In this document: one piece after another, positions 12,000 through 47,906 of the stretch
How the letters are laid out: every line of letters starts with the position of its first letter
Position numbering within the stretch: position 1 is the first letter of the stretch
Source: Simplicispira metamorpha
Lineage (GTDB): Bacteria; Pseudomonadota; Gammaproteobacteria; Burkholderiales; Burkholderiaceae_C
Length of the DNA: 64,000 bases
NCBI RefSeq assembly: GCF_004341365.1
Contig: NZ_SLXH01000007.1
Coordinates: 1 to 64,000 of the forward strand
Direction of reading: 5' to 3'
Made by a program: the position numbers and the translations under genes
The notes under the pieces: generated by a model
The model's database searches: none
Told to the model about the DNA's origin: nothing
What the model saw: only the letters and a program-made list of their open reading frames with translations

Positions 12000-12802
12000 G
12001 GCGCCGATTCTATCGAGGCGGCAACGTCCTCCAGGGTGGGGCGGCATTCCTGCACGCTGCCAAATCCGGCGCTGCGCGCGGCCTGCGCGATGCGCGGGTG
12101 CGTGGCCAGGGCGCGGGCGGCCTGCCAGCTTTGCGCAGGCAAGGCGGCGCGCAAATGCGCAATGGCCTGCGAGCTGCTCAGCAGCCACAGCGTGCCGTCG
12201 CTGGCCGCTTGCTGTGCCAGGGCGTGCTGTGCGGGCGTCCATTGCGGTGCCGCGCGTGTGTAGGCAGCCACCCAGTCCACTGCGGCGCCTGCTGTGCGCA
12301 GTTGCTGCGCCAGCCAATCGCGGCCACTGCCTGCGGGGGCATCGCCCGCCTGGGCACCGCGCACGATGAGCACGCGCGCGCCGGGCGTGATCTGGCCCTG
12401 CACCTGCGCCCACAGGGCTTCGGAGTCAAACTGCACGGCATCGGCGGCGGGTTGGTCAATGCAGGCGGCATCCAGGCCCAGTGCTTGCAGCGTGCGGGCG
12501 GTGCCGGGGCCGGGCGCCCACACTCTTGTTTTGATAGCTGCTTGCGCGCACCCAGAAAGGGCCAGAGCCGTTTTTTGATCAAAGAAGTGCTGCGCCGCAT
12601 TGCCGCTGACCACCATGACGGCGTCATAGCGGGCGATGTGCTGGCGCGCGGTGTGCAGGGCTTGCTGCGCGGCGGCATCGGTGGGGGCGGCAATGGCGAT
12701 CAGCGGCAGGGCCTGGGCCCGCAGGCCGCGCGCTTGCAGCGCGGCCACCCAGGGCGCGGCCTCGCTCTCGGGGCGGGTGACGAGGGTGCGCGGCACCGGC
12801 AT
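11996..12802 (-). CDS. hemD: Uroporphyrinogen-III synthase, containing an in-frame dispersed repeat
   Basis: A 268-aa HemD, which closes hydroxymethylbilane to uroporphyrinogen III. Family marks are TLVTRPESEA, LPLIAIA, VSGNAAQHF, VWAPGPGTARTLQALGL and a late LLSSSQAIAHL. Residues of about 75-95, reading TALALSGCAQAAIKT, are encoded by a copy of the dispersed repeat lying between VSGNAAQHFF and the conserved GPGTA. The frame is kept, so the protein should still fold with a slightly altered loop. The start at 12802 is eight bases past the hemC stop. Confidence 0.92.
   Translation of the reverse strand: MPVPRTLVTRPESEAAPWVAALQARGLRAQALPLIAIAAPTDAAAQQALHTARQHIARYDAVMVVSGNAAQHFFDQKTALALSGCAQAAIKTRVWAPGPGTARTLQALGLDAACIDQPAADAVQFDSEALWAQVQGQITPGARVLIVRGAQAGDAPAGSGRDWLAQQLRTAGAAVDWVAAYTRAAPQWTPAQHALAQQAASDGTLWLLSSSQAIAHLRAALPAQSWQAARALATHPRIAQAARSAGFGSVQECRPTLEDVAASIESAP
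12520..12581 (-). repeat. Dispersed palindromic repeat, copy 4, inside hemD
   Basis: On the minus (coding) strand: CAAAAAACGGCTCTGGCCCT, a spacer, then GCGCGCAAGCAGCTATCAAA. The copy is translated in frame in hemD. Confidence 0.8.
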
Positions 12803-12810
12803 GGGCCGCG

Positions 12811-13767
12811 TCAGCCCGCGCTGGCGCTGTCGGCGGCGCCCGCCACGCCGATGGCACCGCCTGCGCGCAGTTGCGTCGCCACGGCCTGGCCCAGGGCGTT
12901 GGCCTGCTCCAGCGTCAGCACGGTGCCTGCGGCGTGGGCGCGCACCAAGGGGATACGGCCTTCGGGGTCGCCCCAGGCGGCGTCCAGGTGCAGTTGATCG
13001 CCCTCCAGACGCGCATGGGCAGCCAGCGGCATGGAGCAACTGCCGCCCATGCTGCGGCTGACGGCACGCTCGGCAGTGACGGTAAGCCAGGTGGGCCAGT
13101 GCGCCAGCGGCGCCAGTGCCTCAATCAGGTCGTAGCGGGCCGTGCGCACCTCAATGCCCAAAGCGCCCTGGCCCGCAGCGGGCAGCATCTCGGTGGGATC
13201 AAAAATGGTGCGGATGCGCGCATCCAGCCCCAGGCGTTTGAGCCCTGCCGCCGCCAGCACGATGGCGTCGTACTGGCCCTCATCGAGCTTGCGCAGGCGC
13301 GTATCCAGGTTGCCGCGCAGGGGCTCAATGCGCAGATCGGGGCGCAGCGCCTGCAACAGCACCTGGCGGCGCAGGCTGGAGGTGCCCACCACCGCGCCGT
13401 GGGGCAGCTCGGCCAGCGAAGCAAAGGTGGGCGAGACAAAGGCATCGCGCGGGTCTTCGCGCTCCATCACGCAGGCCAGGGCAAAGCCTTCGGGCAGCTC
13501 CATGGGCACATCTTTGAGCGAATGCACGGCCAGCTGGGCGCGGCCATCTTGCAGCGCGGTTTCCAGTTCTTTGACGAACAGGCCCTTGCCACCGACTTTG
13601 CTCAGGCTGCGGTCCAGAATCTGGTCGCCCAGCGTGGTCATGCCCAGCAGCGACACGGTGTGGCCGCGCGCGCGCAGCAGGGCTTGCACATGCTCGGCCT
13701 GCCACAGGGCCAGGCGGCTTTCGCGCGTGGCGATCACGAGGGGGGAGGGGTGCGGGTTCACGGGCAT
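12811..13767 (-). CDS. hemC: Hydroxymethylbilane synthase (porphobilinogen deaminase)
   Basis: A 318-aa HemC, joining four porphobilinogens. The catalytic aspartate is D86 in HSLKDVP, the cofactor-attaching cysteine is C244 in GGSCSMP, and TSSLRRQ and [10 protein letters not shown] are intact. The ATG at 13767 was preferred to a TTG five codons upstream because [20 protein letters not shown] fits the family N-terminus. It is the first gene of hemCDXY and is divergent from ppc; about 97 bases separate the two starts and must hold both promoters. Confidence 0.96.
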
Positions 13768-13864
13768 CGTCTCGGGTAGCAAAGGAAGCGGGGAATGCTA
13801 GCATCTTGCGCCGTCGCAGCCACCCTCCCCTCCCCCGCTGCTGCGATACCCCAGGAGACACTGC

Positions 13865-16678: not shown

Positions 16679-16703
16679 GCCCCGCACGGCCCAGCGCGGG
16701 GCG

Positions 16704-16737
16704 TAAAAAAAAGGCCCTGCATCGCAGGGCCTTTTTT
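16704..16737. terminator. Bidirectional terminator between ppc and dctM
   Basis: AAGGCCCTGC/GCAGGGCCTT stem with an ATC loop, flanked by a run of A on one side and T on the other. It suits both the ppc transcript and the converging TRAP transcript. Confidence 0.9.
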
Positions 16738-16781
16738 GTGCAGTGCCGCCGCAGACAGGTTGTCTGGCGGCTACAGCAGCG

Positions 16782-18575: not shown

Positions 18576-18589
18576 GGTGGGCTCGGTGC

Positions 18590-19192: not shown

Positions 19193-19371
19193 GTGCTCTC
19201 CGAGAAATCCAGCGATAACAAGATTGGGTGGCAAACGCCAAAGGCCCGCGGGGGTGCCACGGGCCTGGTGAGTAGTGCGCGATAGGTGTGCGCCACTGGG
19301 GCCAGAGTCTGACGCAAATCAAGCGCTGGCGTGACGGTGTTATCCCGCAAAGGGGGCGATTTTAAGGCTCA

Positions 19372-19423
19372 AAAAAAATAGCTGCTGGCGCTTGCTACAT
19401 ATGCCTTAGAGTGCTTTTTGACC
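19372..19423 (-). repeat. Dispersed palindromic repeat, copy 5, at the end of the tup regulator gene
   Basis: Minus strand: GTCAAAAAGCACTCTAAGGC, spacer, then AGCAAGCGCCAGCAGCTATT followed by a T run. It supplies the last codons and stop of the regulator, and its T-rich end could help termination. Confidence 0.8.
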
Positions 19424-20533
19424 CTTGTTTTCCGGCTTGCGCCGGGCAAACTTCCACCACGGCAGCACCCGGCTCATGGACAGCACTTCGCCGCAGTGCA
19501 GCGGCGCATAGCCCGCCATGCTGGCCATCTCCTGCTGCCAGGCACTGGTTTGCAGCAATGCACGCAAGGCCTGCATGGCGGGCTGCTCCAGCGCCGATTG
19601 CAGACAGGCCAGGTGGTAGCGCTCTTGCACCAGTGGCACAAAGTCCAGGCCGCGCATGCGCGCCGCCAGTTCAATGCCGACGCCCACATCGGCGCTGCCC
19701 GCCGCCACCGCCTGCGCCACCGCCCCGTGCGAGGGTTCGTGCTGCGCGTAGCCGGTGATGTCCTCGGGCACCAGGCCCGCCCGGGCCAGCAGGTCGTCCA
19801 GCAGCACACGGGTGCCCGAGCCCAGCGGGCGGTTGACAAACCGCGCCCCGCTGCGCGCCACATCGCCCAGCGAATGCAGCCCCAGCGGGTTGCCCGGCGC
19901 CACGATCAGCCCCTGCGTGCGCCGGGCAAAGCCAATGAGCTTGTGCAGGCCGGGCTGCAGCAGGGGGCGGTAGGTGCGCGCGGCCAGCGAGTCGGCGTCG
20001 GGCTGCTCCAGCGTGTGAAAACCCGCCAGCGTGCAGCGCCCCTCATTGAGGGCGCGGATGGCGTCCACGCTGCCGGTGAAGCGGATGTCCAGATGCACCG
20101 CATCGTCACTGCCCGGCGTGGCGGCCCAGGCGCGCAGCGCAGCCAGCGCATCGTCGTGGCTGGCGTAGAGGGTGAGCACATGGGCATTGGCATCAAAGGC
20201 CACGGCGAAGGCGCGCTCCAGATCGGCGCGCAGGGCTTCGATCTGCGGCGCCAGCCGCGCCTGGGCCTGGCGCTCGGCCCACAGCAGCTTGGTGCCAAAC
20301 GGACTGAGCTGCGCCGACTGGCCCTTGCCCCAGACGATGAGCTCGCCGCCGAGCTGGTCTTCCCAGCGCTTGAGCGAGCCCCAGACATGGCGGTACGACA
20401 GTTGCAGCGCGCGCGCCGCACCCGAAATGGAGCCCTCGCGGGCCACTGCCTGGAGCAGTTCAGGCAGGGGGTTGCGGGCCAGGGCGTCGCCCGCGTCGCG
20501 GCTGATGGTGTAGTGGAGCTGGATCCTATGCAC
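19406..20533 (-). CDS. ModE-like HTH regulator fused to a periplasmic-binding-type domain
   Basis: A 375-aa transcription factor. Residues 20-95 form a ModE/LysR-like winged helix (PLPELLQAVAREGSISGAAR, SYRHVWGSLKRWEDQLGGEL). Residues 115-350 resemble an oxyanion-binding periplasmic protein (RPLGSGTRVLLDDLLARAGL, GYAQHEPSHGAVAQAVAAGS, ADVGVGIELAA). The molybdate-binding MOP domain of classical ModE is absent. Being divergent from tupBCA with only 49 bases between starts, it probably senses tungstate or molybdate and controls that operon; this is inference. The start is a GTG with no clear Shine-Dalgarno. The final codons lie in repeat copy 5. Confidence 0.85.
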   Translation of the reverse strand: MHRIQLHYTISRDAGDALARNPLPELLQAVAREGSISGAARALQLSYRHVWGSLKRWEDQLGGELIVWGKGQSAQLSPFGTKLLWAERQAQARLAPQIEALRADLERAFAVAFDANAHVLTLYASHDDALAALRAWAATPGSDDAVHLDIRFTGSVDAIRALNEGRCTLAGFHTLEQPDADSLAARTYRPLLQPGLHKLIGFARRTQGLIVAPGNPLGLHSLGDVARSGARFVNRPLGSGTRVLLDDLLARAGLVPEDITGYAQHEPSHGAVAQAVAAGSADVGVGIELAARMRGLDFVPLVQERYHLACLQSALEQPAMQALRALLQTSAWQQEMASMAGYAPLHCGEVLSMSRVLPWWKFARRKPENKGQKAL

Positions 20534-21320: not shown

Positions 21321-22069
21321 GGGCCGACCTGCCCCCCCCCATGCACAGCCCGGCACCTGCCGTGGTGTGGAACTTGCAGGCCGTGGGCGTGCAATATGGC
21401 CGCGTGAGCGCGCTCTCTGGCGTGACGCTGCGCATTGCCCAAGGCGAGCGCGTGGCGCTGGTGGGCTCCAATGGCAGTGGCAAAAGCACCTTGCTGCGCG
21501 TGCTGCACGGGCTGGTTCCCGCCAGCAGTGGGCAGGTGCAGCAGGACGGCGCACTGCGCCAGGCCATGCTGTTTCAGCGCCCGCACATGCTGCGCACCAG
21601 CGTGCAAAACAACATCGTGCTGGGGCTGTGGCTGCGCGGCACCGCCTGGCGCGATGCCAAGGTGCAGGCACGTACGGCGTTGCAGCGCGTGGGCTTGCAG
21701 GCCGTGGCACAGCAAAACGCGCGCACGCTCTCGGGTGGCCAGCAGCAGCGCCTGGCCCTGGCCCGCGCCTGGGCCTTGCGGCCTGATGTGCTGCTGCTGG
21801 ACGAGCCCACCGCCAGCCTCGACCCCCACGCCAAGCGCGAGGTCGAGGCGCTGATGGCCGACTTTGCCGCCAGCCACGCCAGCGCTGGCCCCGCGCACCC
21901 AGTCACCACCGTGTTCAGCAGCCACAACCTGGGCCAGGTCAAGCGCCTGGCCAGTCGCGTGGTGTACCTGGAGCATGGCTGCGTGCTGGCCGATTTGCCG
22001 GTGCACGATTTTTTCAATGGCCCCTTGCCCCAGGCCGCCGCGTTGTTTGTTCAAGGAGAAAAAGTATGA
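21317..22069 (+). CDS. tupC: Tungstate ABC transporter ATPase, with C9 tract near its start
   Basis: A 250-aa ABC ATPase: Walker A GSNGSGKST, Q-loop LFQRPHML, signature LSGGQQQRLALARA, Walker B VLLLDEPTASLD and an H-loop in SSHNLGQ. A run of nine C (21332-21340) encodes three prolines at codons 6-8 and is followed immediately by an in-frame ATG at 21341. Slippage of the tract would abolish translation from 21317 but not from 21341. The gene overlaps both tupB and tupA by four bases, so the operon is translationally coupled. Confidence 0.93.
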   Translation: MRADLPPPMHSPAPAVVWNLQAVGVQYGRVSALSGVTLRIAQGERVALVGSNGSGKSTLLRVLHGLVPASSGQVQQDGALRQAMLFQRPHMLRTSVQNNIVLGLWLRGTAWRDAKVQARTALQRVGLQAVAQQNARTLSGGQQQRLALARAWALRPDVLLLDEPTASLDPHAKREVEALMADFAASHASAGPAHPVTTVFSSHNLGQVKRLASRVVYLEHGCVLADLPVHDFFNGPLPQAAALFVQGEKV

Positions 22070-22893
22070 AGAATTACCAGTGTTTTAAGCCGCTAGCCCT
22101 TACACAAAAAGCGCTTACAGCTATTGTATTGATAGCATCTAGCACCACCTGGGCGCAAAGCATCCACATGGCGTCCACCACGTCCACCGAGCAATCGGGC
22201 TTGTTCTCGCACCTGCTGCCCGCGTTCAAGGCGGCCAGCGGCATTGACGTCAAAGTGGTGGCAGTGGGCACCGGCCAGGCGCTGGACATGGCGCGCCGGG
22301 GCGATGCCGACGTGCTCTTCGTCCACGACCAGGTGGCCGAAGAAAAATTTGTGGCCGACGGCTGGGGCGTGCAGCGCTACCCCGTGATGTACAACGACTT
22401 CATCCTCATCGGCCCCAAGCAGGACCCGGCAGGCACGCGCGGCAAAGACATCGTGGCCGCCCTGCAAAAAATCGCCACCAGCAACACCGAATTCGTCTCG
22501 CGCGGCGACAAGAGCGGCACACACGCCGCCGAGCTGCGCTACTGGAAGCTCTCCAGCCCCGATGCGGCCAAGGGCAAGGGCTACAAGGAATGCGGCTGCG
22601 GCATGGGCCCGGCGCTGAACATCGCTGCCTCCAGCGGCGCCTACGTGCTGGCCGACCGGGGCACCTGGCTCAACTTCAAGAACCGCGCCGACCTGGCCGT
22701 GCTGGTCGAGGGCGACACGCGCCTGTTCAACCAGTACGGCGTGATGGTGGTCAACCCGGCCAAACACCCCCACGTCAAGGTGCAAGAAGCGCAGAAGTTC
22801 GTGGACTGGATCGTCTCGCCCGCCGGGCAGAAAACCATTGCCAGCTACCAGATCGGTGGCGAGCAGTTGTTCTTTCCGAACGCGGGCAAATAA
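22066..22893 (+). CDS. tupA: Tungstate-binding periplasmic protein; signal peptide built from the dispersed repeat
   Basis: A 275-aa binding protein. Mature sequence starts near SIHMASTTSTEQSGLFSHLL; the TTSTEQSGL loop and the later RGDKSGTH segment are hallmarks of TupA-type oxyanion binding. Residues 7-26 (KPLALTQKALTAIVLIASS), the hydrophobic core of the signal peptide, are encoded by a repeat copy at 22083-22142. Cleavage is predicted after TTWA. AAGGAG lies eight bases before the ATG. Two cysteines in KECGCGMG are unusual, but such pairs occur in the family. Confidence 0.92.
   Translation: MKNYQCFKPLALTQKALTAIVLIASSTTWAQSIHMASTTSTEQSGLFSHLLPAFKAASGIDVKVVAVGTGQALDMARRGDADVLFVHDQVAEEKFVADGWGVQRYPVMYNDFILIGPKQDPAGTRGKDIVAALQKIATSNTEFVSRGDKSGTHAAELRYWKLSSPDAAKGKGYKECGCGMGPALNIAASSGAYVLADRGTWLNFKNRADLAVLVEGDTRLFNQYGVMVVNPAKHPHVKVQEAQKFVDWIVSPAGQKTIASYQIGGEQLFFPNAGK
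22083..22142 (+). repeat. Dispersed palindromic repeat, copy 6, inside tupA
   Basis: AAGCCGCTAGCCCTTACACA followed by AAAGCGCTTACAGCTATTGT and ATTGATAGC. It is translated as the TupA signal peptide core. Confidence 0.85.
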
Positions 22894-32932: not shown

Positions 32933-32947
32933 GGGATGGTGGAGTAT

Positions 32948-32997
32948 AAAAATGATAGCTTGCAGCGCTTTTGCAGCGGGCGCTGGAGCCCGAATTA
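32948..32997 (-). repeat. Dispersed palindromic repeat, copy 7, upstream of the DnaJ operon
   Basis: Minus strand: GGGCTCCAGCGCCCGCTGCA, then AAAAGCGCTGCAAGCTATCA. It occupies the gap between the Crp-like stop and the J-domain start, where the promoter would be expected. Confidence 0.75.
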
Positions 32998-33775
32998 TCC
33001 CGATATTTCGCGGTGGGGTGCAGCGCCCGTGTAGCGCCATGGAATTGGGTTGGCTGCGTGCGCTGGGTCGGGCCCGAGCAGGCGGTCGTACTCGCGCTTG
33101 ACCACGCCATAGCACTCGCAGGTGCGCAGTTCCAGCCCGGGGCGATCGAGCACCGTGATGTGGCCGCGCCGGTAGTGGATGAGCCCGGCCTTTTGCAGGC
33201 GCCCGGCCGCCTCGGTCACGCCTTCGCGGCGCACGCCCAGCATGTTGGCAATCAGCTCTTGCGTCATCACCAGCTCGTTGCTGGGCAGCCTGTCCAGGCT
33301 CAGCAGCAACCAGCGGCACAGCTGCTGGTCCAGGGAGTGGTGGCGGTTGCACACGGCCGTTTGCGACATCTGCGTGATCAGCGCCTGGGTGTAGCGCAGC
33401 AGCAGGTGCATGGCGGGGCCAGCGCGGTTGAACTCTTGCATCATCACTGGCGCGGGCAACCGGTAGCCCTCGCCAGCGCTTTGCACCACCGCACGGTTGG
33501 GGGTGGAATCGCCCCCCATGAACAACGAGATGCCGACGATGCCCTCATAGCCAACCACGGCGATTTCTGTGGAAGCGCCGTTCTCCATCACATAGAGCAA
33601 AGAGACGATGGACGTGGTGGGAAAGTACACATGGCGCAGCTTGGCCCCCGATTCGTACAGCACGGTTTCCAAGGGCATGGGGATGCGCTCCAACTGCGCC
33701 AGCCAGCGTTTCCAAATAGGGGGGGGGCAATGCCGCCAGCAGGCGATTGGTGCGCGGGTCAGAGGGAGGGGCCAT
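32995..33775 (-). pseudogene. Crp/Fnr-family regulator, out of frame at a C9 tract
   Basis: The start ATG at 33775 (GGAG seven bases upstream) reads MAPPSDPRTNRLLAALP and enters nine C (33719-33727 on the plus strand as G), after which the protein homologous to Crp/Fnr continues in another frame (PPIWKRWLAQLERIPMPLET). With eight C the frames join to give 259 aa: a cyclic-nucleotide-binding-like sensor (VLYESGAKLRHVYFPTTSIV) and a C-terminal winged helix (LVMTQELIANMLGVRREGVT). The cAMP contact residues of CRP are not evident, so the ligand is unknown. All else is intact, which suggests a phase-variable switch or a sequencing error rather than decay. It is divergent from the glucan synthase operon. 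Confidence 0.8.
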
Positions 33776-34811: not shown

Positions 34812-37800
34812 GTGAAAAAATCGCCCCAGCTGCGCTGGGTGCCCTCTGTGGGTTCCGAGGCGCTGGCCCTTCTGGAGCCTGCGCGCGGCGCTGTGGAGAC
34901 GCCCATCCGGGCAGAGATCTTCGGCGCCACGCGCTTTGCCCAGCACGGGCGCAGCCTGGGGCAGGCGCACCCGGCCCGGGTCAATGCCCGTGCAGCGCCG
35001 TTTTTTCCACGCTTGCAAGACAACATCCGCGTTCTGCGCGAGGCGCACGCCTACATCGCCTTGCAGGAAAGTGCGGGCCACCATGTCAGCCCGGCAGGCG
35101 ATTGGCTGATGGACAACTTCAGCGTCGTGATGGCGCAGGTCAAAGAAATCCACGACGGTTTGCCCCGGCGCTACTTTCGCGATTTGCCAGTGCTGGTAGA
35201 GGCGCACCTGGAAGGATTGCCGCGCGTGTACGGCGTGGCGTGGGCGTTTGTGGCCCACACCGATAGCGCCTTTGACGCGTCTTTGCTGGCCCATTTCCTG
35301 AACGCATACCAGGAGACGCGCGAACTCACCCTGGGCGAGCTGTGGGCCTTGCCCACCACCTTGCGCGTGGTGCTGATTGAAAACCTGCGCCGCCTGTCCG
35401 AGCGCCTGGCCACGGCCCAGGCTGCTTATGCGTGGGCCAATCAGTGGTGCGACGGGCTGTGTGCCAGCAGCCGCTCTCCCATCACCGATGTGCAGGCCGT
35501 GATGGAGGTGATGCGTTTGCGGGGCGTGGGCCGCATTTTTGCGTTGCAGATCCTTCAACGGCTGCGCACCGATACCGGCACGCCTGCACCCGGTGTGTCC
35601 GACAGCACACTGGACGCAGTGCGCCAGGCAGTTGCAGCGCTGTGCCCCGAGCCCGCCAGCGCGCAGGTGCAACAGCAGGCCGAACAGGCCGCCGATGACC
35701 TGAGCGTGCGCAATGCCATCACCTCGCTGCGCCGTTTGGCCGACACCGACTGGCGTCAGCTGATTGCGGGCACCAGCGTGCTGGTGCGCCGCATGGGCGC
35801 CTCGCCCCTGTTCCAGGCGGAGCGCGAGGACACCCAAGATGCAAGCCTGCACGCCATCGAGCGCCTGGCCCGGCGCAGCGGCCACAGCGAACTGGCAGTG
35901 GCCGATGCCCTGCTGGCGCTGATGCAATCTCCCCCCGCACCGCCGCCCCTTGCGACAGAAGCGCCAGCGCAGCCTGTGGCCGCATCGCCCCAGGAAGCGC
36001 CCGGGTATTGGCTCCAGGGCCCCGGGGCACCGGCACTGCACCGGGCACTGGGGTTGGGGCGTGCAATGCAGTGGCCCTGGCGGGTGCAATGGCAGCCTTG
36101 GGCCCTGTCGGCGTATATGGGCACGGTGGTTCTGGGCAGTCTGGGTTTGACGGCCTGGTTTCTGGCGCAGCAGTCTGGCTTGCAGGGTTCGGAGGGCATG
36201 TGGCTGGCGTGGGCCTTGCTGGCTTTTTGGCCCGCCAGCGAAGCGGTGATGGCCGTGGTCAACCGCCTGATCAGCGAGTCGCTGCCACCACAACGCCTGC
36301 CCCGTCTGGCGCTGGCAGAGGGCATCCCTTTAGAGCATCGCGTGCTGGTGGTCATCCCCTGCATGCTGGGCGATGGCGCTGGTGTGCAGGCGCTGGTGCG
36401 CCAGCTGGAACTGCACTACCTGGCCAACCGGGAGCCGCAGGCGCAGTTTGCCTTGCTCAGTGATTTTGCCGACGCCAGTACGCCGCACACCCCGGGCGAT
36501 GCGGCGCTGCTGCAAACCGCGCAAGCGGCCCTGGAGGCCCTGGAGCTGCGCCACAGCGCTGCCCCGCTGGCGCTGGGGCGGCGGTTTTTGCTGCTGCACC
36601 GCGAACGCCGCTGGTCGGACAGCGAGCAATGCTGGATGGGCTGGGAGCGCAAGCGTGGCAAGCTGGAGCAATTGGTGCAGGTGCTGGCCGCCGATACGGC
36701 CTGGCCGTTCATGGATTTGGGGGCGTGCTCGCGCCTGACACGGACAACGCCTTACGTGGTCACGCTCGACAGCGACACCGGCCTGCCCCCTGGTGCCTTG
36801 CGCGCCTTGGTGGGGGTGGCCGCGCACCCGCTCAACCAGCCGCGCGTTGATACGGCCCGGCGCCGCGTGGTGGCGGGCCACGGCATCTTGCAGCCGCGCC
36901 TGACCACACCGCTGCCTGCACCGCAGGCCGCAACCCCTTTTCACTGGCTGTTTGCCGGGCAATGCGGTGTAGACCCGTACAGCGCCGCCACATCCGAGGT
37001 GTACCAGGATGTGTTTGGCGAGGGCACTTTTTCTGGCAAAGGCCTGCTGCACGTGGCCGCAGTCCACGCAGTGCTGTCGGGCAGATTGCCGACGGGCCAG
37101 ATCCTCAGCCACGACTTGCTGGAAGGTTCGGTGGCGCGCTGCGGTGGTGTCAGCGACATCACCCTGATGGAGGATGCGCCGCTGCACGCCGACGTGGCCT
37201 CCTCGCGCGTACACCGCTGGACGCGCGGCGACTGGCAGCTCTGGCCGGTGCTGCTGCAATGGCGCCGCTTTGGCCTGCGCACCATCCACGGCTGGAAGAT
37301 GCTGGACAACCTGCGCCGCTCCCTGGTGGCGCCGATGTCGGTGCTGTTGTTGTGGGCCAGTCTGGCCAGTGGGGCGGTATCGCCCTGGGGGGCACTGGCT
37401 TTGGTGGCCGCTGCTTTTGCCGCCGGCCCCCTGCTGGGCGCCGTGGCCGGGCTGGCGCCGTCCCATGACGACGTGGCACTGGGGCGGTTTTTCAGGCTGG
37501 CCCTGGCCGATGTGGCCCGGGCTCTGGGCAGCGCGTGCTGGAACCTGGCCACCTTGTTGCAACAGGGCCTGCTGTTGGCCCACGCCATCGCCACGGCCCT
37601 GTGGCGCACCACCATCAGCCGCCGGGGGTTGCTGCGCTGGACCACCGCCGCCAGTGCGCAGGCCAGCGTGCAGCACACATTGCAGGGACTGGCGCGGCGG
37701 CACGCCCCCGTGGCCCTGGCTGCACTGGCGCTCTGGAGCGGGCTGTGGTGGGTTGGCACGCCATGGCCACTGCTGGCCACAGCGGTGTGCCTGCTGTGGG

Positions 37801-40800
37801 CGGGCGCTGCGCTGTGGATATGGGCGGGCAGTCGGCCCTGGAAAACAGCCTGCACCAGTGCGCCCAGCGTGGCAGACCGTGCCTATTTGCAGGGCGTGGC
37901 GCGCGACACCTGGCGCCTGTTCGAGCGCCACGTGGGCGCACCAAGCCACCACCTGCCACCCGACAACGTGCAGACCGTGCCGCACATGATGGTGGCGCAG
38001 CGCACATCGCCCACCAACATCGGCCTGTACCTGCTGTCGGTGGCCTGCGCGCGGCACTTCGGGTGGATCAGCACGGCTGAGTTGCTGCAACGCTGCGAGG
38101 CCACCCTGGCCACCCTGGCCACCTTGCAGCGCCACCGGGGGCATTTTCTGAACTGGTATGACACCGCCACCCTGGCGCCTTTGCCACCGGCCTACGTCTC
38201 CAGCGTGGACAGCGGCAACCTGTGTGGCCACCTGCTGGCGCTGGCGGGCGCTTGCACCGAAGCAGCCGACGCAGGCCCCCCCACCTGCGACGCCGCACAG
38301 GCGCAGCGCCTGCATTTATTGGCTGTGCAGTGCCGCCGACTCGCCGAGGCGCCCGAGTTCGGCTTCCTCTACGACCCATGCAGGCGGCTGTTGCACATCG
38401 GCTACCAGGTGGACGAGCAGCAATTGGACAAGGGCTTTTACGACCTGCTGGCCTCCGAGTCCCGCCTGGCCAGCCTGTGGGCCATTGCCAAGGGCGATGT
38501 GCCAGTCGCCCACTGGATTGCGCTGGGGCGTCCGTTCTATGCGGCGGGCCGCCAGGCGGGCCTGCGCTCCTGGTCGGGCTCCATGTTCGAGTACCTGATG
38601 CCTGCGCTGGTGCTCGATGAACCCGCTGGCAGCGCGCTGGCCAGCGCTGCCCATGCCGCCATACACGCGCAGCAGCGCTTTGGCCACGAGCGTTGTGTGC
38701 CCTGGGGGCTGTCTGAATCGGCCTACGCCGCCACCGACCACACTTTGGCCTACCAATACGCACCCCAGGGCGTAGCGCGCCTGGCGCTGCGGCGCACTCC
38801 CCCCGACGAACTGGTGGTGGCGCCCTACGCCACCCTTCTGGCCGCCATGTTTGCGCCGGGTGCCGCCGTGGCCAACCTGCGTCGGCTGGAGCAATTGCAA
38901 GCGCGTGCCGATATGGGCTTCATTGAAGCGCTGGACTTCACCCCCGAGCGCCAGACCGCAGGCAGCGCCTGCACCCCCGTCCATGCCTTCATGTCGCACC
39001 ACCAGGGCATGGCCCTGGTGGCGCTGGCGAACGTGCTGCTCGATGGAGCGCCTCGGCGCTGGACGATGGCGGATGCACGCTGGGAAGCGGTGGCGCCACT
39101 GCTGCAAGAGCGCGTACCACGCGAAGTCTCCAGACTGCCAGCGCCGGAGCCCATACCGCACTGCATCCGCCAACCGGCCTTGGCGCCTGCGCCTGCGGTG
39201 CGCGACATCGTGCCCGGCCAGAGCGCCTTGCAGCCCACGCTGCTCATGTCCAATGGCCGCTACAGCGTGGCGCTGCGGGCCAACGGCGCGGGCTGGAGCC
39301 GCTTTGCCGGGGCTGACGTCTCCCGCTGGCGCGACGATGCGCTGCGCGATGCGTATGGCACTTTCTTCTACCTGCGCCGCCACACCGCCAGTGGCCGTGC
39401 TGCCCCCGTGTCCCTGACGCAGCATCCCGCGCCCGATGCGCAGGCGCATTACCAGGCGTCGTTCCACAGCGACCACGCCTGCCTGAGCGCCCGCTGGAGC
39501 GATCTGCACACCTGCTGCACCGTCTGGGTCAGCCCCGAAGACGACATCGAGCTGCGCCGCGTGGAGCTGCACAACACCTCGGCGCAAACGATGACCGTCG
39601 ATGTGGTGTCGATGTGGGAGGTGTCTCTTCTGGGCAGCCGTACCGATGAGGCCCACCCGGCGTTCGCCAACCTGTTTGTCAGCGCAGACTGGGATGGCGC
39701 CGACCAGGCGCTGTACTTGGTGCGCAAACCCCATGTGGATGGCCAGGACGCTGTGCACGCCGTGCATTTCATTGCCCATACCAACCAGCCGCTGGTGCGG
39801 GTGCGGGCACAAGCCGACCGGGCCGCCTGGCTGGGGCGCAACCGCGATGCCGCCCACCCCCGGGCGCACCACGGAGCGGCGCAGCCGGGCGCAGCGCAGG
39901 CGCACACAGGGCTCGATCCGGTGGCATCGCTGTACATACAGATCACGGTGCCCGCCCACGCCAGCGTTCAGACCACGTTTGCCACCGCCGCCGCAACCCA
40001 ACGGGCGGCGCTGGAAACGCTGGTCGACCGCTACCGCCAGCCCTCGGTCATCGAGCGCTCCACGCTGATGTCGGCCACCTTTGCCCAGGCACGGCAGCGC
40101 GACTGGGCCCTGCCCGGCGAAGAGCGCCAGGCCCTGCAAACCCTGAGCACCGTGCTGGCCCTGCTGCATTCCCGCCCCGAAGCGCCCACTGGCACGGCCA
40201 CCTGCGAGCTGTCATGCGACCGGCGCACCCTGTGGCGCTTTGGCCTCTCAGGCGAGCGGCCCCTGATCGTGGTCGATATCGCGGCCCTGCACGGTGTGCG
40301 GCTGGTTCACGCCCTGACCCAGGGGCTGCGGCTGTGGACGTGGGGTGCGCTGGCGTGCGACGTGGTCATCCTCAATGCCGAGCCCTGGTCTTACCTGATG
40401 CCCGTGCAAATGCAATTGCTGGCGCAGCGCGATAGCTACACCGCCGACGTGGCGGCGGCAGTGCCAGCGCGCACCTGCGGCTTGCAGGTGCTGCACCTGG
40501 GTGATCTGGCGCCGCTGGAGCAGGCCACGTTGCGCCGGTTGGCGCGCGTACGCTTGAGCGCCGACGGCAGGCCCCTGTCGCACCATGTGGCAGAACTGGT
40601 GCAGTGGCACGACGCCAGCCTGGCCGAACGCACGGGCAAGAGCGGCGCTGGCCTGGCGCCGTGGGTGGATGCTGTGGCCGAACAGCCCCCCGAGGGCCAG
40701 TTCGACAGCGCCAGTGGCAGCTTTCGCTTCTCGGTATCGGCCACGCGGCGCCCCTCCCGGCCTTGGATCAACGTGCTGGCCAACCCCGACTTTGGCGCGC

Positions 40801-43124
40801 ACATCTCCGAGGCGGGTGCGGGCTACAGCTGGGCGGGCAACAGCCGCCTGCAACAGCTCACCGCCTGGTCCAACGACCCCGTGGCCGATCCCGGCGGCGA
40901 GAACTTTTATGTGCAAGACCTGCACACCCACGAGGTCTGGAACCTGGGCGCTGGCGCAGGCTGCGCCGAGACCGAGTACGGCGTTGAGCATGGTCGCGGC
41001 ACCACCACCATTCGCCACCGGCGCGGGGGCGTGGAGATCAGCGCCACCTGGTGTGTGGATGCGGTGCAGTCGCTCAAGCAGGTGCGCATCGTGCTGTGCA
41101 ACCTGGGGCCACGGGTGGTGCATTTGCGCACCATCGGCACGCTGGAGTGGCTGCTGGGCGCGCAGCGCACCGACCGCCAATCGGTGGACACAGCGATGCA
41201 GCGCCTGCCCGGCAGCGCCAGCGCACCCACCGACGTGCTGCTGGCCACCCAATGCGATGCCCACGGTGGCTGGGGCGGCAGCACCGCCTTTCTGGTTTTG
41301 CACAGCGACGGCCCCGCTGGCGCCCGGCTGCGCGACTGGACATGCGACCGGCGCGAGCTGTTTGATGCGCGCGGCCAGCGCGTTTTTCCTGACCGCCTGG
41401 GGGCACGCGCTGGCCCGGGGCTGGACCCCTGCGCAGCGGCCAGCACCTCGACCACGCTACAGCCGGGCCAGATCCACGGCTGCGTCTTTGTGCTGGGGCA
41501 CGCCCCCACCCGGGCGGGCGCGCTGGCGCTGGCCGGTGTGTGCCTGGAGCAAGGTGTTCTGGCGCGCGAGGCAATGGTGCGCCAGCGCTGGGCGGCGCTG
41601 CTGGACGCCGTGGTCGTGGACACGCCCGACCCGCTGTTCAATGCCCTGACCAACCACTGGCTGCTGTACCAGACGGTGGCGTGCCGGCTGTGGGCGCGGG
41701 CGGGCTTTTACCAGGCGGGTGGTGCCTTCGGGTTCCGCGACCAGCTCCAGGACGCCATGGCCCTGGCCGTGACGGCGCCCCAGCTGCTGCGCCAGCAACT
41801 GCGGCTGGCCGCCTCGCGCCAGTTTGTGGAAGGCGATGTGCAGCACTGGTGGCACCCGCCCGGCGGTGCCGGGGTGCGCACCCGTTGCAGCGACGATTTG
41901 CTCTGGCTCCCCTACGCTGCCGCGCACTACGTGCAAGTCAGTGGCGACGCTGCGCTGCTGGAAGAATCCGTGCCTTTTCTGGACGGCCCACCCCTGCCCG
42001 CTGGCGCCCAGGATGCCTACTACGAACCCCAGGTCAGCGCGCACGAGGCCAGCGTGTACGAGCACTGCGCCCGCGCCATCGACCACAGCCTGGCCGTGGG
42101 CCTGCACGGCCTGCCACTGATGGGCAGCGGCGACTGGAACGACGGCATGAACCATGTGGGCGACCAGGGGCGGGGCGAGTCGGTCTGGCTGGGCTGGTTC
42201 CTGTGCCGCCTGGTGGAAGACTTTTCTCCCCTGGCGCAGGCGCGCGGCGACAACCAGCGCGTGGCCCGCTGGCACAGCGCCGCCCAGGGCTGGCGCGCCG
42301 CGCTGCAAGGCCCGGCATGGGACGGGCAATGGTTCAAGCGCGCTTTTTTCGACGATGGCACGGCCCTGGGCACCCACAGCGCCCTGGAGTGCCGCATCGA
42401 CCTGATCGCGCAGGCCTGGAGCGTGCTCTCGGGCGTCGCCCCGCCCGAGCGCCAGCAAATGGCCATGGCCTCGGTGGCGCGCTGGCTGGTGGATGATGCC
42501 CACGGCCTCAACCGCCTGCTGGAGCCGCCGCTGCAGCAGTCCGTGCCCCATGCGGGCTACATCCAGGCCTACCCGCCCGGCGTGCGCGAGAACGGCGGCC
42601 AGTACGCGCACGCAGGGGTCTGGAAGCTGATGGCCCAGGCCCAGTTGGGCGATGCCGACGGGGCCTTTCGCACCTTTGCGCAGCTCAGTCCGGCACACCG
42701 CTGGGCCGATCCCCAGCAAAGCCCGGCCTACGGGCTGGAGCCTTATGTGATGGCCGCTGACGTCTATACCCACGCGCCTTACGTGGGGCGCGGCGGCTGG
42801 AGCTGGTACACCGGTGCGGCGGCGTGGATGCACCGCGCCGCCATCGAATCCATTTGCGGCCTGCGCGTGCGCGCAGGCAGCGTCTGCATCGTGCCGGGCC
42901 TGCCATCGCACTGGCCGATGGCCACACTGACGCTGCGCCGCAACGGGCGCACCCACCGCTTCATCGTTTGCAATGCCCAGGCCACGACCGAGCTGGAGCA
43001 GGCCCTGGCGCAAGGCGCCCAGCGGCTGCAGGCGGGCCAGTGGCTGGTGTTGCCAGAGGCCGGTGACGCCAGCTCCCATGTGGTGCTGCAAGCGCCCCCC
43101 CATAACCCGCCAGCCAGCGCTTGA
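34812..43124 (+). CDS. ndvB: Cyclic beta-1,2-glucan synthase (NdvB/Cgs type)
   Basis: A 2770-aa multidomain enzyme, close in length to rhizobial NdvB and Brucella Cgs (about 2830-2870 aa). In order: N-terminal region (1-400; AEIFGATRFAQHGRSLGQ), membrane helices (about 420-480), GT84 transferase (about 500-930; LDSDTGLPPG near 652 and RWTRGDWQLWP near 800), more helices (about 840-1010), glycoamylase-like domain (about 1090-1480; SGSMFEYLMPALVLDEP), then tandem GH94 phosphorylase-like regions ending with GSGDWNDGMNHVG (near 2438). It makes cyclic glucans from UDP-glucose for the periplasm, relevant to osmotic adaptation and host interaction. The start is GTG at 34812 with only a weak ribosome site. 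Such giant synthases are best known in alphaproteobacteria, so presence here is notable. Confidence 0.93.
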   Translation: MKKSPQLRWVPSVGSEALALLEPARGAVETPIRAEIFGATRFAQHGRSLGQAHPARVNARAAPFFPRLQDNIRVLREAHAYIALQESAGHHVSPAGDWLMDNFSVVMAQVKEIHDGLPRRYFRDLPVLVEAHLEGLPRVYGVAWAFVAHTDSAFDASLLAHFLNAYQETRELTLGELWALPTTLRVVLIENLRRLSERLATAQAAYAWANQWCDGLCASSRSPITDVQAVMEVMRLRGVGRIFALQILQRLRTDTGTPAPGVSDSTLDAVRQAVAALCPEPASAQVQQQAEQAADDLSVRNAITSLRRLADTDWRQLIAGTSVLVRRMGASPLFQAEREDTQDASLHAIERLARRSGHSELAVADALLALMQSPPAPPPLATEAPAQPVAASPQEAPGYWLQGPGAPALHRALGLGRAMQWPWRVQWQPWALSAYMGTVVLGSLGLTAWFLAQQSGLQGSEGMWLAWALLAFWPASEAVMAVVNRLISESLPPQRLPRLALAEGIPLEHRVLVVIPCMLGDGAGVQALVRQLELHYLANREPQAQFALLSDFADASTPHTPGDAALLQTAQAALEALELRHSAAPLALGRRFLLLHRERRWSDSEQCWMGWERKRGKLEQLVQVLAADTAWPFMDLGACSRLTRTTPYVVTLDSDTGLPPGALRALVGVAAHPLNQPRVDTARRRVVAGHGILQPRLTTPLPAPQAATPFHWLFAGQCGVDPYSAATSEVYQDVFGEGTFSGKGLLHVAAVHAVLSGRLPTGQILSHDLLEGSVARCGGVSDITLMEDAPLHADVASSRVHRWTRGDWQLWPVLLQWRRFGLRTIHGWKMLDNLRRSLVAPMSVLLLWASLASGAVSPWGALALVAAAFAAGPLLGAVAGLAPSHDDVALGRFFRLALADVARALGSACWNLATLLQQGLLLAHAIATALWRTTISRRGLLRWTTAASAQASVQHTLQGLARRHAPVALAALALWSGLWWVGTPWPLLATAVCLLWAGAALWIWAGSRPWKTACTSAPSVADRAYLQGVARDTWRLFERHVGAPSHHLPPDNVQTVPHMMVAQRTSPTNIGLYLLSVACARHFGWISTAELLQRCEATLATLATLQRHRGHFLNWYDTATLAPLPPAYVSSVDSGNLCGHLLALAGACTEAADAGPPTCDAAQAQRLHLLAVQCRRLAEAPEFGFLYDPCRRLLHIGYQVDEQQLDKGFYDLLASESRLASLWAIAKGDVPVAHWIALGRPFYAAGRQAGLRSWSGSMFEYLMPALVLDEPAGSALASAAHAAIHAQQRFGHERCVPWGLSESAYAATDHTLAYQYAPQGVARLALRRTPPDELVVAPYATLLAAMFAPGAAVANLRRLEQLQARADMGFIEALDFTPERQTAGSACTPVHAFMSHHQGMALVALANVLLDGAPRRWTMADARWEAVAPLLQERVPREVSRLPAPEPIPHCIRQPALAPAPAVRDIVPGQSALQPTLLMSNGRYSVALRANGAGWSRFAGADVSRWRDDALRDAYGTFFYLRRHTASGRAAPVSLTQHPAPDAQAHYQASFHSDHACLSARWSDLHTCCTVWVSPEDDIELRRVELHNTSAQTMTVDVVSMWEVSLLGSRTDEAHPAFANLFVSADWDGADQALYLVRKPHVDGQDAVHAVHFIAHTNQPLVRVRAQADRAAWLGRNRDAAHPRAHHGAAQPGAAQAHTGLDPVASLYIQITVPAHASVQTTFATAAATQRAALETLVDRYRQPSVIERSTLMSATFAQARQRDWALPGEERQALQTLSTVLALLHSRPEAPTGTATCELSCDRRTLWRFGLSGERPLIVVDIAALHGVRLVHALTQGLRLWTWGALACDVVILNAEPWSYLMPVQMQLLAQRDSYTADVAAAVPARTCGLQVLHLGDLAPLEQATLRRLARVRLSADGRPLSHHVAELVQWHDASLAERTGKSGAGLAPWVDAVAEQPPEGQFDSASGSFRFSVSATRRPSRPWINVLANPDFGAHISEAGAGYSWAGNSRLQQLTAWSNDPVADPGGENFYVQDLHTHEVWNLGAGAGCAETEYGVEHGRGTTTIRHRRGGVEISATWCVDAVQSLKQVRIVLCNLGPRVVHLRTIGTLEWLLGAQRTDRQSVDTAMQRLPGSASAPTDVLLATQCDAHGGWGGSTAFLVLHSDGPAGARLRDWTCDRRELFDARGQRVFPDRLGARAGPGLDPCAAASTSTTLQPGQIHGCVFVLGHAPTRAGALALAGVCLEQGVLAREAMVRQRWAALLDAVVVDTPDPLFNALTNHWLLYQTVACRLWARAGFYQAGGAFGFRDQLQDAMALAVTAPQLLRQQLRLAASRQFVEGDVQHWWHPPGGAGVRTRCSDDLLWLPYAAAHYVQVSGDAALLEESVPFLDGPPLPAGAQDAYYEPQVSAHEASVYEHCARAIDHSLAVGLHGLPLMGSGDWNDGMNHVGDQGRGESVWLGWFLCRLVEDFSPLAQARGDNQRVARWHSAAQGWRAALQGPAWDGQWFKRAFFDDGTALGTHSALECRIDLIAQAWSVLSGVAPPERQQMAMASVARWLVDDAHGLNRLLEPPLQQSVPHAGYIQAYPPGVRENGGQYAHAGVWKLMAQAQLGDADGAFRTFAQLSPAHRWADPQQSPAYGLEPYVMAADVYTHAPYVGRGGWSWYTGAAAWMHRAAIESICGLRVRAGSVCIVPGLPSHWPMATLTLRRNGRTHRFIVCNAQATTELEQALAQGAQRLQAGQWLVLPEAGDASSHVVLQAPPHNPPASA

Positions 43125-43153: not shown

Positions 43154-43215
43154 GATAATTGCTATTGATTTGGTAGCTGATTGCGCAATACCAGCAAGCA
43201 CTGGAGGCATATTTG
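43154..43215 (-). repeat. Dispersed palindromic repeat, copy 8
   Basis: Minus strand: ATGCCTCCAGTGCTTGCTGG, then TTGCGCAATCAGCTACCAAA and TCAATAGCAATT. It lies between the converging ndvB and KaiC-like genes. Confidence 0.8.
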
Positions 43216-43234
43216 ACGCATAAAAAATATGCCT
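43205..43234. terminator. AT-rich hairpin between ndvB and the KaiC-like gene
   Basis: AGGCATATTT/AAATATGCCT, a perfect ten-pair stem with a ten-base loop, at the edge of repeat copy 8. It is probably a bidirectional transcript end, though it lacks a long T run. Confidence 0.45.
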
Positions 43235-43275
43235 GCTGCGGTGCTTCCGCCGGGGCCGTGGCCCGGTGGTGCATC

Positions 43276-44724: not shown

Positions 44725-44874
44725 GGCAGCCGCCTGTGTCCGGTGGGCAGTGCGGCGTGGCGTGGTGGGTACATGGCAGGGGCTCCAAAAGACCAGAAGG
44801 CGCCCACAGTGCGCTGTTTGCCGCGCCCGGTCTGTGCGATGGCCCACACAGGCACCGCCAGAGCGCGCGGCGCG

Positions 44875-45258: not shown

Positions 45259-45360
45259 AGGGCTGGTCAGCAAAGGTGGATGGCGGGGCGCGCATTGTCC
45301 GGCAAAGCCCCTGCGCTGGTGCCGGGGCATGATTTTTTCAACACCACACAAGGAGTTTTC

Positions 45361-45990: not shown

Positions 45991-46041
45991 CCGACCGGCC
46001 CTTCCCACTGGCCGGTTGTCAGCGGGCCGCAGCGTGGGGCG

Positions 46042-46857
46042 CTACATGGCCTTGAAGCGGTGGGCATACAGGCGGCTGACCGCCAGGCTCTCGGGTCTGC
46101 CCCGCAGATGGACGTGCAGCCGGCCCGCTTCGTCGCGCGATACCGTGGTGATGGCGTTGGCACGCACCAGGGTGCCGCGGTGTATCTGCCAGAACGCTTG
46201 CGCGTCGAGCTGCGCCGCAAGCTCTTTGAGCGGGGTGCGGATCAGGTACTCGCGCTCGGCGGTGAGCACCCGCACGTACTTGTCTGCCGCCTCGAAGTAC
46301 AGCACGTCCTGCACGGCCACCAAATGAATGTGTGCGCCGCTGCTGGCCTGCACCATGGTCAGCGGCACCGCTGCGGCGCTAGCGCGCGCAGGGGCCTGGG
46401 CCGTGGCCGCCAGCAACTGGCGCAGCTGCGCCATGGTTGCTTCCAAATCAATAGCTGCTGGCGCACGGCTGGCAAGGGCTGATTGCAGTTTTTGTACAGT
46501 TTTTTGCAACCGCTGCGGCTGCACAGGCTTGAGCAGGTAGTCCATGGCCTGCGCCTCGAATGCCTGCACGGCGTACTGGTCGTAGGCCGTCACGAACACC
46601 AGGGCCGGAAAAGGCGCTTCTGCGCAGGGCCAGGCATCGGCCAGCTCGGCGGCGGCATCCAGCCCGCTCTGGCCGGGCATGCGGATGTCGAAGAACAGCA
46701 CCTCGGGGCGCAGCGCCAGCGCCTGGCGCACGGCAGACAGGCCATCGCCCACCGTGGCCACAATGTCCAGCGCGGGCCATGCCTGGCCCAGGGCGTGGCG
46801 CAGCGCGTCGGCCAGCAAGGGTTCGTCTTCGGCGATCAGGGCGCGGGGCGGGGTCAT
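46042..46857 (-). CDS. LytTR-family response regulator with repeat-derived linker
   Basis: A 271-aa AlgR-like regulator. Receiver domain (1-120): acidic pair E10-D11, phosphoryl site D57 in FFDIRMPG, and the lysine in LLKPVQP. LytTR DNA-binding domain (about 165-271): VAVQDVLYFEAADKYVRVLT, FWQIHRGTLVRANAI. The linker residues 120-141 (LQSALASRAPAAIDLEATM) are encoded by repeat copy 9, so the insertion lengthened the hinge without breaking the frame. Its ATG overlaps the kinase stop by four bases. The target genes are unknown. Confidence 0.92.
   Translation of the reverse strand: MTPPRALIAEDEPLLADALRHALGQAWPALDIVATVGDGLSAVRQALALRPEVLFFDIRMPGQSGLDAAAELADAWPCAEAPFPALVFVTAYDQYAVQAFEAQAMDYLLKPVQPQRLQKTVQKLQSALASRAPAAIDLEATMAQLRQLLAATAQAPARASAAAVPLTMVQASSGAHIHLVAVQDVLYFEAADKYVRVLTAEREYLIRTPLKELAAQLDAQAFWQIHRGTLVRANAITTVSRDEAGRLHVHLRGRPESLAVSRLYAHRFKAM
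46437..46503 (-). repeat. Dispersed palindromic repeat, copy 9, inside the response regulator gene
   Basis: Minus strand: CAATCAGCCCTTGCCAGCCG followed by TGCGCCAGCAGCTATTGATT. It is translated as the linker between the receiver and LytTR domains. Confidence 0.8.
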
Positions 46858-47906
46858 GCGGGTGGGCCAGATTTCAAAGGAAAAGTGACTCTGGCGCTTA
46901 CGCCACCTGCGCTAGCAGCTATCAATTCAAGAGCACTCTGGGCGCCGTACAGTGTGGCCAGCCGCTCGCGCACCTGGGTCAGGCCAAAGCCGTGGGCGGT
47001 GCCCGGGGCGCCTGCGCTCAGGCCCACTCCGGTGTCGTCCACCTGCAACTGCAAACACGGGCCTGTGGCGCCGGAAACGGTACGGGCCTGCACGGCGATA
47101 TGGCCACCTGCCAACTGCGGCTCCAGCCCATGGCGGATGGCGTTTTCCAGCAGCGGCTGCAACAACAAGGCAGGCACGGGCACCGTGCGCAGGGCATCGG
47201 GCAAGTCAAGCTGATAGGTCAGGCGCGGGCCCATGCGCACGGCCATGAGTTCGAGGTAGTCGCGCAGGCGGTCGAATTCCTCGGCCAGCGGGTGCAGCAC
47301 GGCGCGCGAGGCGCCCAGCGTGGCGCGCAGGTAGGCGATCAGGTGGTCCAGCATGGTGTGGGCGCGTGCCGGATCGGTGGACACCAGCACCCGCAAGGTG
47401 GCCAGGGTGTTGAACAGCATGTGGGGTTCGAGCTGCGCTTGCAGCAGTTGCAGGCGTGCCTCAGCGGCATCACGCTGGGTCTGGGCCATGCGTGCTTGCA
47501 GGTGGCGGGCACGGCCTTGGCTGTAGAAGAAGAATGAAACGCCCCCGCCCGCTGCGATGGTGATGGCCAGGGGCCACACCGTGCCCTGCTGGTGCGGCAG
47601 GTACTGGGCACTGCCGCTGTAGGCCTTGCCGATGAGCGAGCCCAGCACATACCCCGCGCTGATACCTCCCGCGACAAGCAGCAGCCCGCGCCAGCCAGGG
47701 GGCCAGGCCGCGTGGCTGGCGCGCGTGAGCCAGGCGCGGCCCAGATCAATTACCAGCCAGGACACCAGGCCAATGCCCAGCGAGTACGCCAGTTGCACAT
47801 CCCAGGCACCCTGGCCAGAGACAGTCAGTGCCAGGGCGATGGCGCAGCACAGCAAGGCAGAAACAAGGCCGTGGCGCAGAAAAGGAGCGGTGTCGAAGTG
47901 CTGCAT
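46854..47906 (-). CDS. LytS-type sensor histidine kinase, C9 tract in its leader and repeat at its 3' end
   Basis: A 350-aa membrane kinase: hydrophobic helices (about 12-30, 40-56, 72-92, 108-128), then the His-kinase domain with phospho-accepting histidine in QLEPHMLFNTLATL and the ATPase part (LLLQPLLENAIRHGLEP, VDDTGVGL, GFGLTQVRERL). This is the PF06580-type partner of LytTR regulators. Residues 321-341 (AQSALELIAASAGGVSARV) come from repeat copy 10. A run of nine C (47917-47925) sits 11 bases upstream of the ATG at 47906, where a Shine-Dalgarno should be; none is visible. The stimulus is unknown. Confidence 0.9.
   Translation of the reverse strand: MQHFDTAPFLRHGLVSALLCCAIALALTVSGQGAWDVQLAYSLGIGLVSWLVIDLGRAWLTRASHAAWPPGWRGLLLVAGGISAGYVLGSLIGKAYSGSAQYLPHQQGTVWPLAITIAAGGGVSFFFYSQGRARHLQARMAQTQRDAAEARLQLLQAQLEPHMLFNTLATLRVLVSTDPARAHTMLDHLIAYLRATLGASRAVLHPLAEEFDRLRDYLELMAVRMGPRLTYQLDLPDALRTVPVPALLLQPLLENAIRHGLEPQLAGGHIAVQARTVSGATGPCLQLQVDDTGVGLSAGAPGTAHGFGLTQVRERLATLYGAQSALELIAASAGGVSARVTFPLKSGPPA
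46882..46940 (+). repeat. Dispersed palindromic repeat, copy 10, inside the kinase gene
   Basis: Plus strand: AGTGACTCTGGCGCTTACGC then CTGCGCTAGCAGCTATCAAT. It lies antisense to the gene and encodes residues 321-341. Confidence 0.8.

Follow-up and report, generated by a model that had tools for sequence, protein, structure and literature searches.

A long, degenerate DNA motif, possibly a recognition sequence, within and between genes of Simplicispira metamorpha and its relatives

Copies of the motif in the window

The stretch analysed here, referred to as the window, comprises 64,000 nt of the Simplicispira metamorpha genome (positions 1 to 64,000 of the forward strand of contig NZ_SLXH01000007.1, assembly GCF_004341365.1). 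It contains 13 copies of a degenerate repeat, hereafter the motif, some of which lie in frame within the genes hemD and tupA and in the genes of a LytTR response regulator and its histidine kinase. The motif was scored with a weight matrix that covers positions -12 to +55 relative to the core TGATAGCTGCTNGCGC; its training set consisted of 91 intergenic copies and no coding ones. The matrix has an information content of 70.7 bits, spread over approximately 68 bp, and in 37 copies aligned on the core the spacing was fixed from about -12 to +55. As a single genome supplied the matrix, a dialect that has diverged could escape detection. The copies in the window scored 22.8-91.8 bits, and no copy of at least 5 bits was found in three shuffled windows and the reversed window. 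The preliminary description of this DNA, made from the sequence alone, had reported the repeat as translated in the four genes named above; this was confirmed, with scores of 45-66 bits on a matrix trained without coding copies. The mean G + C content of the motif is 46% (range 36-65%).

The copy in hemD (12520-12587, plus strand, antisense to the gene; 65.6 bits) covers approximately residues 72-94 in the frame A-x-A-A-I-K, and orthologues in the aligned loci use the same codons there. The gene itself (11999-12802, minus strand) encodes uroporphyrinogen-III synthase (PF02602, 2.8e-25; the NCBIfam HemD models were matched below their cut-offs). Over the signal peptide of tupA (22066-22893, plus strand; tungstate-binding protein, NF041772, 8.6e-72, 241.7 bits, under the cut-off of 400) lies a copy at 22071-22138 (48.7 bits; residues ~2-25, frame A-L-T-A-I), which, contrary to the preliminary description, is better read on the minus strand, antisense to the gene. 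Among 21 tupA loci, the one from the window included, this copy reached at least 30 bits in three and at least 15 bits in six. The LytTR response regulator gene (46042-46857, minus strand; PF00072 and PF04397, receiver at residues 7-121 and LytTR domain at 176-270) carries a copy in the linker (46437-46504, plus strand, antisense to the gene; 45.1 bits; residues ~118-141). The histidine kinase gene of the same operon (46854-47906, minus strand, start chosen by us; PF06580 and PF02518) has a sense copy near its 3' end (46869-46936, minus strand; 57.6 bits; residues ~324-346, frame L-I-A-A-S-A). All copies had been proposed to sit in loops, linkers or signal peptides. Mostly these are indeed tolerant places, but the kinase copy falls inside the HATPase_c match (residues 248-345).

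The other copies lie between called genes. On the minus strand these are 1738-1805 (53.1 bits), a weak copy at 3588-3655 (22.8 bits), the best copy of the window at 6689-6756 (91.8 bits), 52336-52403 (50.8 bits) and 54975-55042 (57.6 bits), the last of which forms, by eye, a near-perfect hairpin followed by a run of T's. On the plus strand they are 43159-43226 (56.1 bits) and 60604-60671 (59.1 bits), together with two copies of which the core lies between called genes, 19364-19431 (47.0 bits) and 32941-33008 (42.7 bits). The window further contains a tRNA (712-793, minus strand) and a flavin mononucleotide (FMN) riboswitch (53077-53245, minus strand), both detected with Rfam, and an open frame of 2770 amino acids (34812-43124, plus strand) that a simple gene finder called as coding, with long frames on the opposite strand too.

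Copy number and position relative to genes

The core TGATAGCTGCTNGCGC, with at most one mismatch, occurs 342 times in the 3.78 Mb genome to which the window belongs (68 contigs), whereas the reversed core, searched in the same way, occurs 0 times. With 184 and 158 cores on the two strands, both strands are used. The intervals between exact cores, listed for contigs C1-C13 with the cores of C14 left out, are somewhat even (coefficient of variation (CV) 0.80 over 81 intervals).

Copies strongly favour non-coding DNA, yet about one in five lies within a gene. In a sample of 112 copies, drawn from the loci of the first listed copies, 60 further genomic stretches and the window, with genes called by a home-made codon-based gene finder, 21 cores were in genes and 91 outside, though 86% of the sampled DNA was coding. 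With the matrix at a threshold of at least 25 bits, 27 of 139 copies were in genes, which is an undercount, since the finder places the start of tupA too late and thereby misses the tupA copy. Sixteen of the 21 coding copies are antisense to their gene: 11 are read as A-x-A-A-I-K, four as A-S-S-Y-Q and one in the third antisense frame. The sense copies are read as L-I-A-A-S-A (four) or D-S-C (one), and none of the 21 uses the frame with the stop.

Genes bearing the motif were gph, thiL, rsmB, an RsmB/F-like gene, moeA, nadE, pgeF/yfiH, dapE, murD, purL, fmt, proA, argF and the genes of an M61 peptidase, a DASH cryptochrome and an S-formylglutathione hydrolase, where the motif is at the N-terminus, ahead of the family match. 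Two of the 21 coding copies (L159 and L212) lie in small frames with no confident family match. The DASH cryptochrome gene (L173:930-2354) has two copies 105 bp apart, and an intergenic pair (L199, on contig C13) shows the same 105 bp spacing. Two copies were also found in proA (L210:1506, 56.5 bits, and L210:2367, 61.4 bits); the segment containing the second is longer than its counterpart in a Burkholderia structure.

Of the 90 intergenic copies that could be placed, gaps between co-directional genes contained 49, convergent gaps 33 and divergent gaps 8; the DNA behind these counts was chosen around copies, so the background gaps do not form an independent sample. Between co-directional genes the two orientations were found 26 and 23 times, without bias. 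With no orientation bias and few copies in divergent gaps, the placement favours a site that acts as DNA, lies close to the ends of genes and avoids promoters; it speaks against an RNA element. A terminator or mRNA hairpin would fit those copies that, like 54975-55042, look like a hairpin followed by T's, and it would fit the many copies in convergent gaps. We nevertheless regard it as very unlikely: most coding copies are antisense, the co-directional orientations are balanced, distant columns do not covary and no match to Rfam at gathering thresholds fell on the repeat. No stem covariation was found: the 40 strongest of 44 column dependences joined near columns, and none of these 40 ran from arm to arm.

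Codon choice inside the motif

In carriers, third-position G + C content was 0.28-0.38 inside the motif and 0.83-0.89 outside it. Synonymous third bases in six genes matched the motif at 747 of 869 sites, against 259 expected from the codon use of the same genes. A held-out test is the fairer one, because the first comparison picked carriers by their motif score. When carriers were called on the left half of the motif and the right half was scored, 326 of 398 sites matched, against 112 expected; the right half was above expectation in all six genes, with tupA contributing only 10 sites. The effect can be followed by eye in dapE, where most carriers write the conserved N-L-W-x-K as AAT TTA/TTG TGG xxx AAA (Asn as AAT in 18/21, Leu as TTA or TTG in 20/21, Lys as AAA in 21/21). 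Among eight dapE orthologues without the motif, also read by eye, AAT was present in two and TTA in one, and five of the eight write AAC CTG.

Judged from these codon patterns, the feature that is kept inside genes is the nucleotide sequence. The suggestion that the repeat had been domesticated as protein sequence was not borne out, since synonymous sites follow the DNA motif against the codon use of the genes. Identical residues in orthologues without the repeat had been named beforehand as an argument against an inserted repeat. This applied only in part: many orthologues do have the same residues at the motif positions, but as fellow carriers of the motif. It is hardly credible that these segments are ordinary conserved protein sequence resembling the repeat by chance. 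The residues are common to many orthologues, as that would predict, but the coding copies reach 45-66 bits where the null stays below 5, the same DNA occurs mostly outside genes, and the held-out codon test contradicts it.

Insertion or overlay

A different origin would be a mobile repeat, similar to repetitive extragenic palindromic sequences (REPs) or miniature inverted-repeat transposable elements (MITEs), moved by a REP-associated tyrosine transposase (RAYT, Y1 family) and tolerated after in-frame insertion. Protein lengths bear on this. Six proteins (those of hemD, tupA, the LytTR regulator, the kinase, dapE and moeA) were sought in 60 relatives each and 21-30 loci per protein were aligned; distant or partial rows were left out for the kinase (L055-L060, 6 of 30) and tupA (L112-L119, 8 of 29), and a locus below 15 bits was counted as being without the motif.

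The clearest case for insertion is moeA, in which an in-frame loop of about 25 residues takes in the entire motif; among 16 motif-free orthologues, 15 were shorter by 15-27 residues, and one had a long loop with no motif there. The loop motif was present in 14 of 30 loci, namely all 12 aligned loci of the same genus and those of two genomes of other genera (G029 and G035); for several genomes of the genus no close match to moeA was found, and these are uninformative on this point. In dapE all eight covering loci without the motif were shorter, by 3-9 residues. Of the hemD orthologues without the motif, three of six had equal length and three were shorter by 3-5 residues, while for the kinase seven of nine had equal length, one was longer by 6 and one did not cover the region. 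For the LytTR regulator 7 of 19 were equal, 8 longer and 4 shorter. Lengths were uninformative for tupA, where signal peptides are variable and matches are cut at that region. Comparison with structures gave a long loop for MoeA (against E. coli), a gap-free alignment across the first ProA copy (against Burkholderia), gaps of two residues near the motif in MurD, approximately three extra residues in ArgF and approximately eight in DapE.

A clean insertion step was thus seen in moeA, partially in dapE, and in none of hemD, the kinase, the LytTR regulator and the first ProA copy; for hemD, the kinase and the LytTR regulator this follows because motif-free orthologues often have the same length or, in the linker, vary both ways. 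The preliminary description suggested that the element can spread into coding DNA. This stood for moeA and dapE, both outside the window, which gained in-frame residues, but hemD, the kinase and the LytTR regulator offered no clean insertion. From the alignments it appears that the motif may bring an in-frame gain, but in several genes it overlies homologous codons.

Distribution across relatives

The motif was abundant in a minority of 200 genomes sampled from one betaproteobacterial family, which includes Acidovorax, Comamonas and Simplicispira, and some genera of the family have many copies. In the rest of the order sample it remained at background level, with at most five copies per genome outside the family. 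To follow one position, hemD was sought in species genomes and the best 80 of 483 relatives were taken, two of the 80 loci lying on one contig. These loci, from genera including Acidovorax, Comamonas, Simplicispira, Diaphorobacter, Ramlibacter and Rhodoferax, had the hemD copy in place at 25 bits or more in 54 cases and at 10-25 bits in 4. The flanks of the 54 carrier loci contained 69 other motifs, versus a total of 1 in the other 26, where no hemD copy reached 25 bits; the reversed control found no motif on the 80 loci. The coding motif is real, in frame and old, with positions shared across genera, and within the hemD loci it is kept or lost jointly, not copy by copy.

This joint presence and absence would suit individually selected binding sites of a putative DNA-binding protein that organises the chromosome or is linked to replication, as would the nucleotide-level maintenance, the use of both strands, the restriction to one family and the somewhat even spacing. 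We consider such a site unlikely, however, for approximately 70 bits are over-specified for the few hundred sites of one protein, and genomes of the genus differ 2.5-fold in the number of copies (342 versus 135 in genome G002).

A copy of 49.1 bits was also found in the class 1 integron NZ_KY913898.1 (L427:1189-1256), between aac(6')-Ib4 and blaOXA-10, where it partly overlaps a small frame annotated as DUF1010. A BLAST search gave partial matches in 1758 records of plasmids, most of them enterobacterial, and many of the matches listed carry DUF1010. The cassette may have originated in the Comamonadaceae-type family. An attC site was considered as the explanation of the plasmid matches and rejected: the one match viewed lies between two GTTRRRY-like sites and on neither. 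Stretches from a viral collection with an exact TTT-core (L383-L426) contained a motif of at least 25 bits in 31 of 44 cases, and these may be host flank or phage DNA alike.

Candidate machinery

A Y1_Tnp (RAYT) match was commoner in motif-rich genomes (21/24) than in motif-free ones (15/24). A motif of at least 20 bits stood beside the RAYT stop codon in 7 of 22 loci from motif-rich genomes (the genome of the window included) and in 0 of 11 from motif-free genomes; these counts cover the loci returned by the search, and the 11 loci had no motif anywhere. In several genera (L152, L223, L229, L230, L233, L239 and L241) the motif 3' of the RAYT gene abuts a conserved TATGTCCCCAATTAA-like sequence, which is also found there without the motif. 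A RAYT as necessary partner was rejected, as genomes G002 (135 copies), G144 (44) and G244 (65) are rich in the motif and gave no Y1_Tnp match.

Together with the moeA loop, the RAYT associations are what favours a mobile repeat, and intragenic REPs encoding 20-30 residues as dimers or groups are known (PMC3733652). Such an element is nonetheless improbable here. Besides the genes with no clean length step and the motif-rich genomes that lack a Y1_Tnp match, the copies have no lineage structure and no stem covariation: no close pairs were found, the best identity outside the core being 0.75, within the shuffled range. A dead insertion, moreover, would not be expected to override codon choice in many species.

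ComEC, examined as a discriminator, was rejected, being present in all 25 motif-rich and all 24 motif-free genomes (49 tested). The comEC gene itself has a sense copy of the motif in two genomes, that of the window and G035 (L429 ~1862, 38.8 bits; L430 ~2286, 54.2 bits), at apparently corresponding places.

Comparison with known repeats

The DNA uptake sequences (DUS) of Neisseriaceae and the uptake signal sequences (USS) of Pasteurellaceae resemble the motif in that they occur in hundreds of copies or more, are restricted to a family, and lie in and between genes on both strands. In genes the reverse complement of DUS and USS is the commoner one (PMC2346458), and in most DUS dialects one of the frames contains a stop, with intragenic copies common in permissive regions (PMC3630211). 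The antisense excess of the motif in genes and its avoidance of the stop frame are similar. Unlike DUS and USS, which are approximately 10-12 bp long, the motif has about 68 bp and 70 bits, and an uptake role is putative here.

With REPs and their RAYTs the motif shares the many short, mostly intergenic repeats, some of them translated, and the presence of RAYT genes in most motif-rich genomes. It differs in that neither end of its consensus bears a GTAG or CGTC tag, that pairing covariation and copying lineages are lacking, that it is often superimposed and not inserted, and that three motif-rich genomes have no RAYT match. Rickettsia palindromic elements (RPEs), described as insertions, are also translated in frame in many unrelated proteins; several copies of the motif, in contrast, show no clean length step, and their positions are common to several genera. 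RPEs are mentioned in PMC3733652.

The Beta-proteobacterial repeat element (BRE) occurs in Betaproteobacteria including Comamonadaceae, some copies entirely within coding sequences, and in Bordetella it has 75-91 bp (one partial copy 50 bp) and 63.7-78.9% G + C, sometimes in tandem (PMC3110155). Its G + C content of about 69% sets it apart from the motif (mean 46%, ~68 bp), a distinction drawn from the description of the BRE in that text and not from its letters. Among the papers listed in a non-exhaustive literature search none that names the motif was found, the BRE being the nearest printed repeat.

Interpretation

On balance we lean, with slightly better than even confidence, towards a degenerate DNA-recognition motif of approximately 68 bp and 70 bits that is restricted to one family, as far as the genomes sampled show, is maintained as DNA and is possibly similar to an uptake sequence. 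It occupies hundreds of places per genome, mostly outside genes and often 3' of them, with about one in five inside. Within genes it would be superimposed on tolerant codons by substitution, with in-frame gains in some, and the host protein would accept any peptide given by the open frames. We infer that a sequence-specific DNA-binding process keeps the motif. About half of the weight of this reading falls to its likeliest single mechanism, a drive in which DNA bearing the motif would be preferentially taken up and recombined, as with uptake sequences; the other half goes to recognition by a process not yet named.

More specifically, and only tentatively, the motif might belong to a DNA uptake sequence system of Comamonadaceae-type bacteria, the third to have arisen independently and one whose recognition sequence is unusually long. 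Biased uptake would then push the motif into coding DNA, with remodelled codons and added loops in core enzymes as the result, and a lineage losing the receptor would lose the motif at all its sites. Uptake-like drive would explain the origin in place, the codon override, the preference for antisense and for certain frames, the even use of strands and the joint loss.

Several observations weigh against a maintained recognition motif of this kind. With about 70 bits the motif far exceeds known uptake sequences in length and carries more information than marking a few hundred sites requires, which would fit a copied element. The spread of pairwise identities (standard deviation 0.087) exceeds the shuffle mean of 0.066, with 0 of 200 column shuffles as high, and the moeA loop looks inserted. 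As to the codons, the z-scores of both tests are inflated, the sequences being related and their kinship ignored. Genome G004, without the dapE motif, still writes AAT TTA there. Codon identity among carriers, where the residue is equal, stood out clearly in hemD alone, where 3 of 191 windows reached the value of the motif; the corresponding counts were 34/247 for the kinase, 52/225 for the LytTR regulator, 108/329 for moeA and 78/344 for dapE. As to uptake, ComEC does not discriminate between the two groups of genomes, and the comEC match of G028 (49 copies) is split over three frames, in a single-contig assembly in which a sequencing error is possible, so that no weight is placed on it; no uptake receptor for this family was found in the non-exhaustive literature search. 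Motifs are also present on some viral-collection contigs, plasmids and an integron.

Whatever process keeps it, the repeat dictates which codons core enzymes use, and in places adds residues to them, over several genera, as tested for hemD, dapE and moeA; proA, purL, murD, argF and other core genes also have copies. For annotation this is a warning that peptides such as AQAAIK, LIAASA and ASSYQ, when met in this family, can reflect the DNA motif and not a property of the protein. A natural test exists in genomes of the same genus with and without the motif. Should the motif serve to organise the chromosome, its length would be unusual for such a site. To our knowledge, recognition of self-DNA by competent bacteria is established in two families only; if the motif is an uptake signal, such recognition would extend beyond them.

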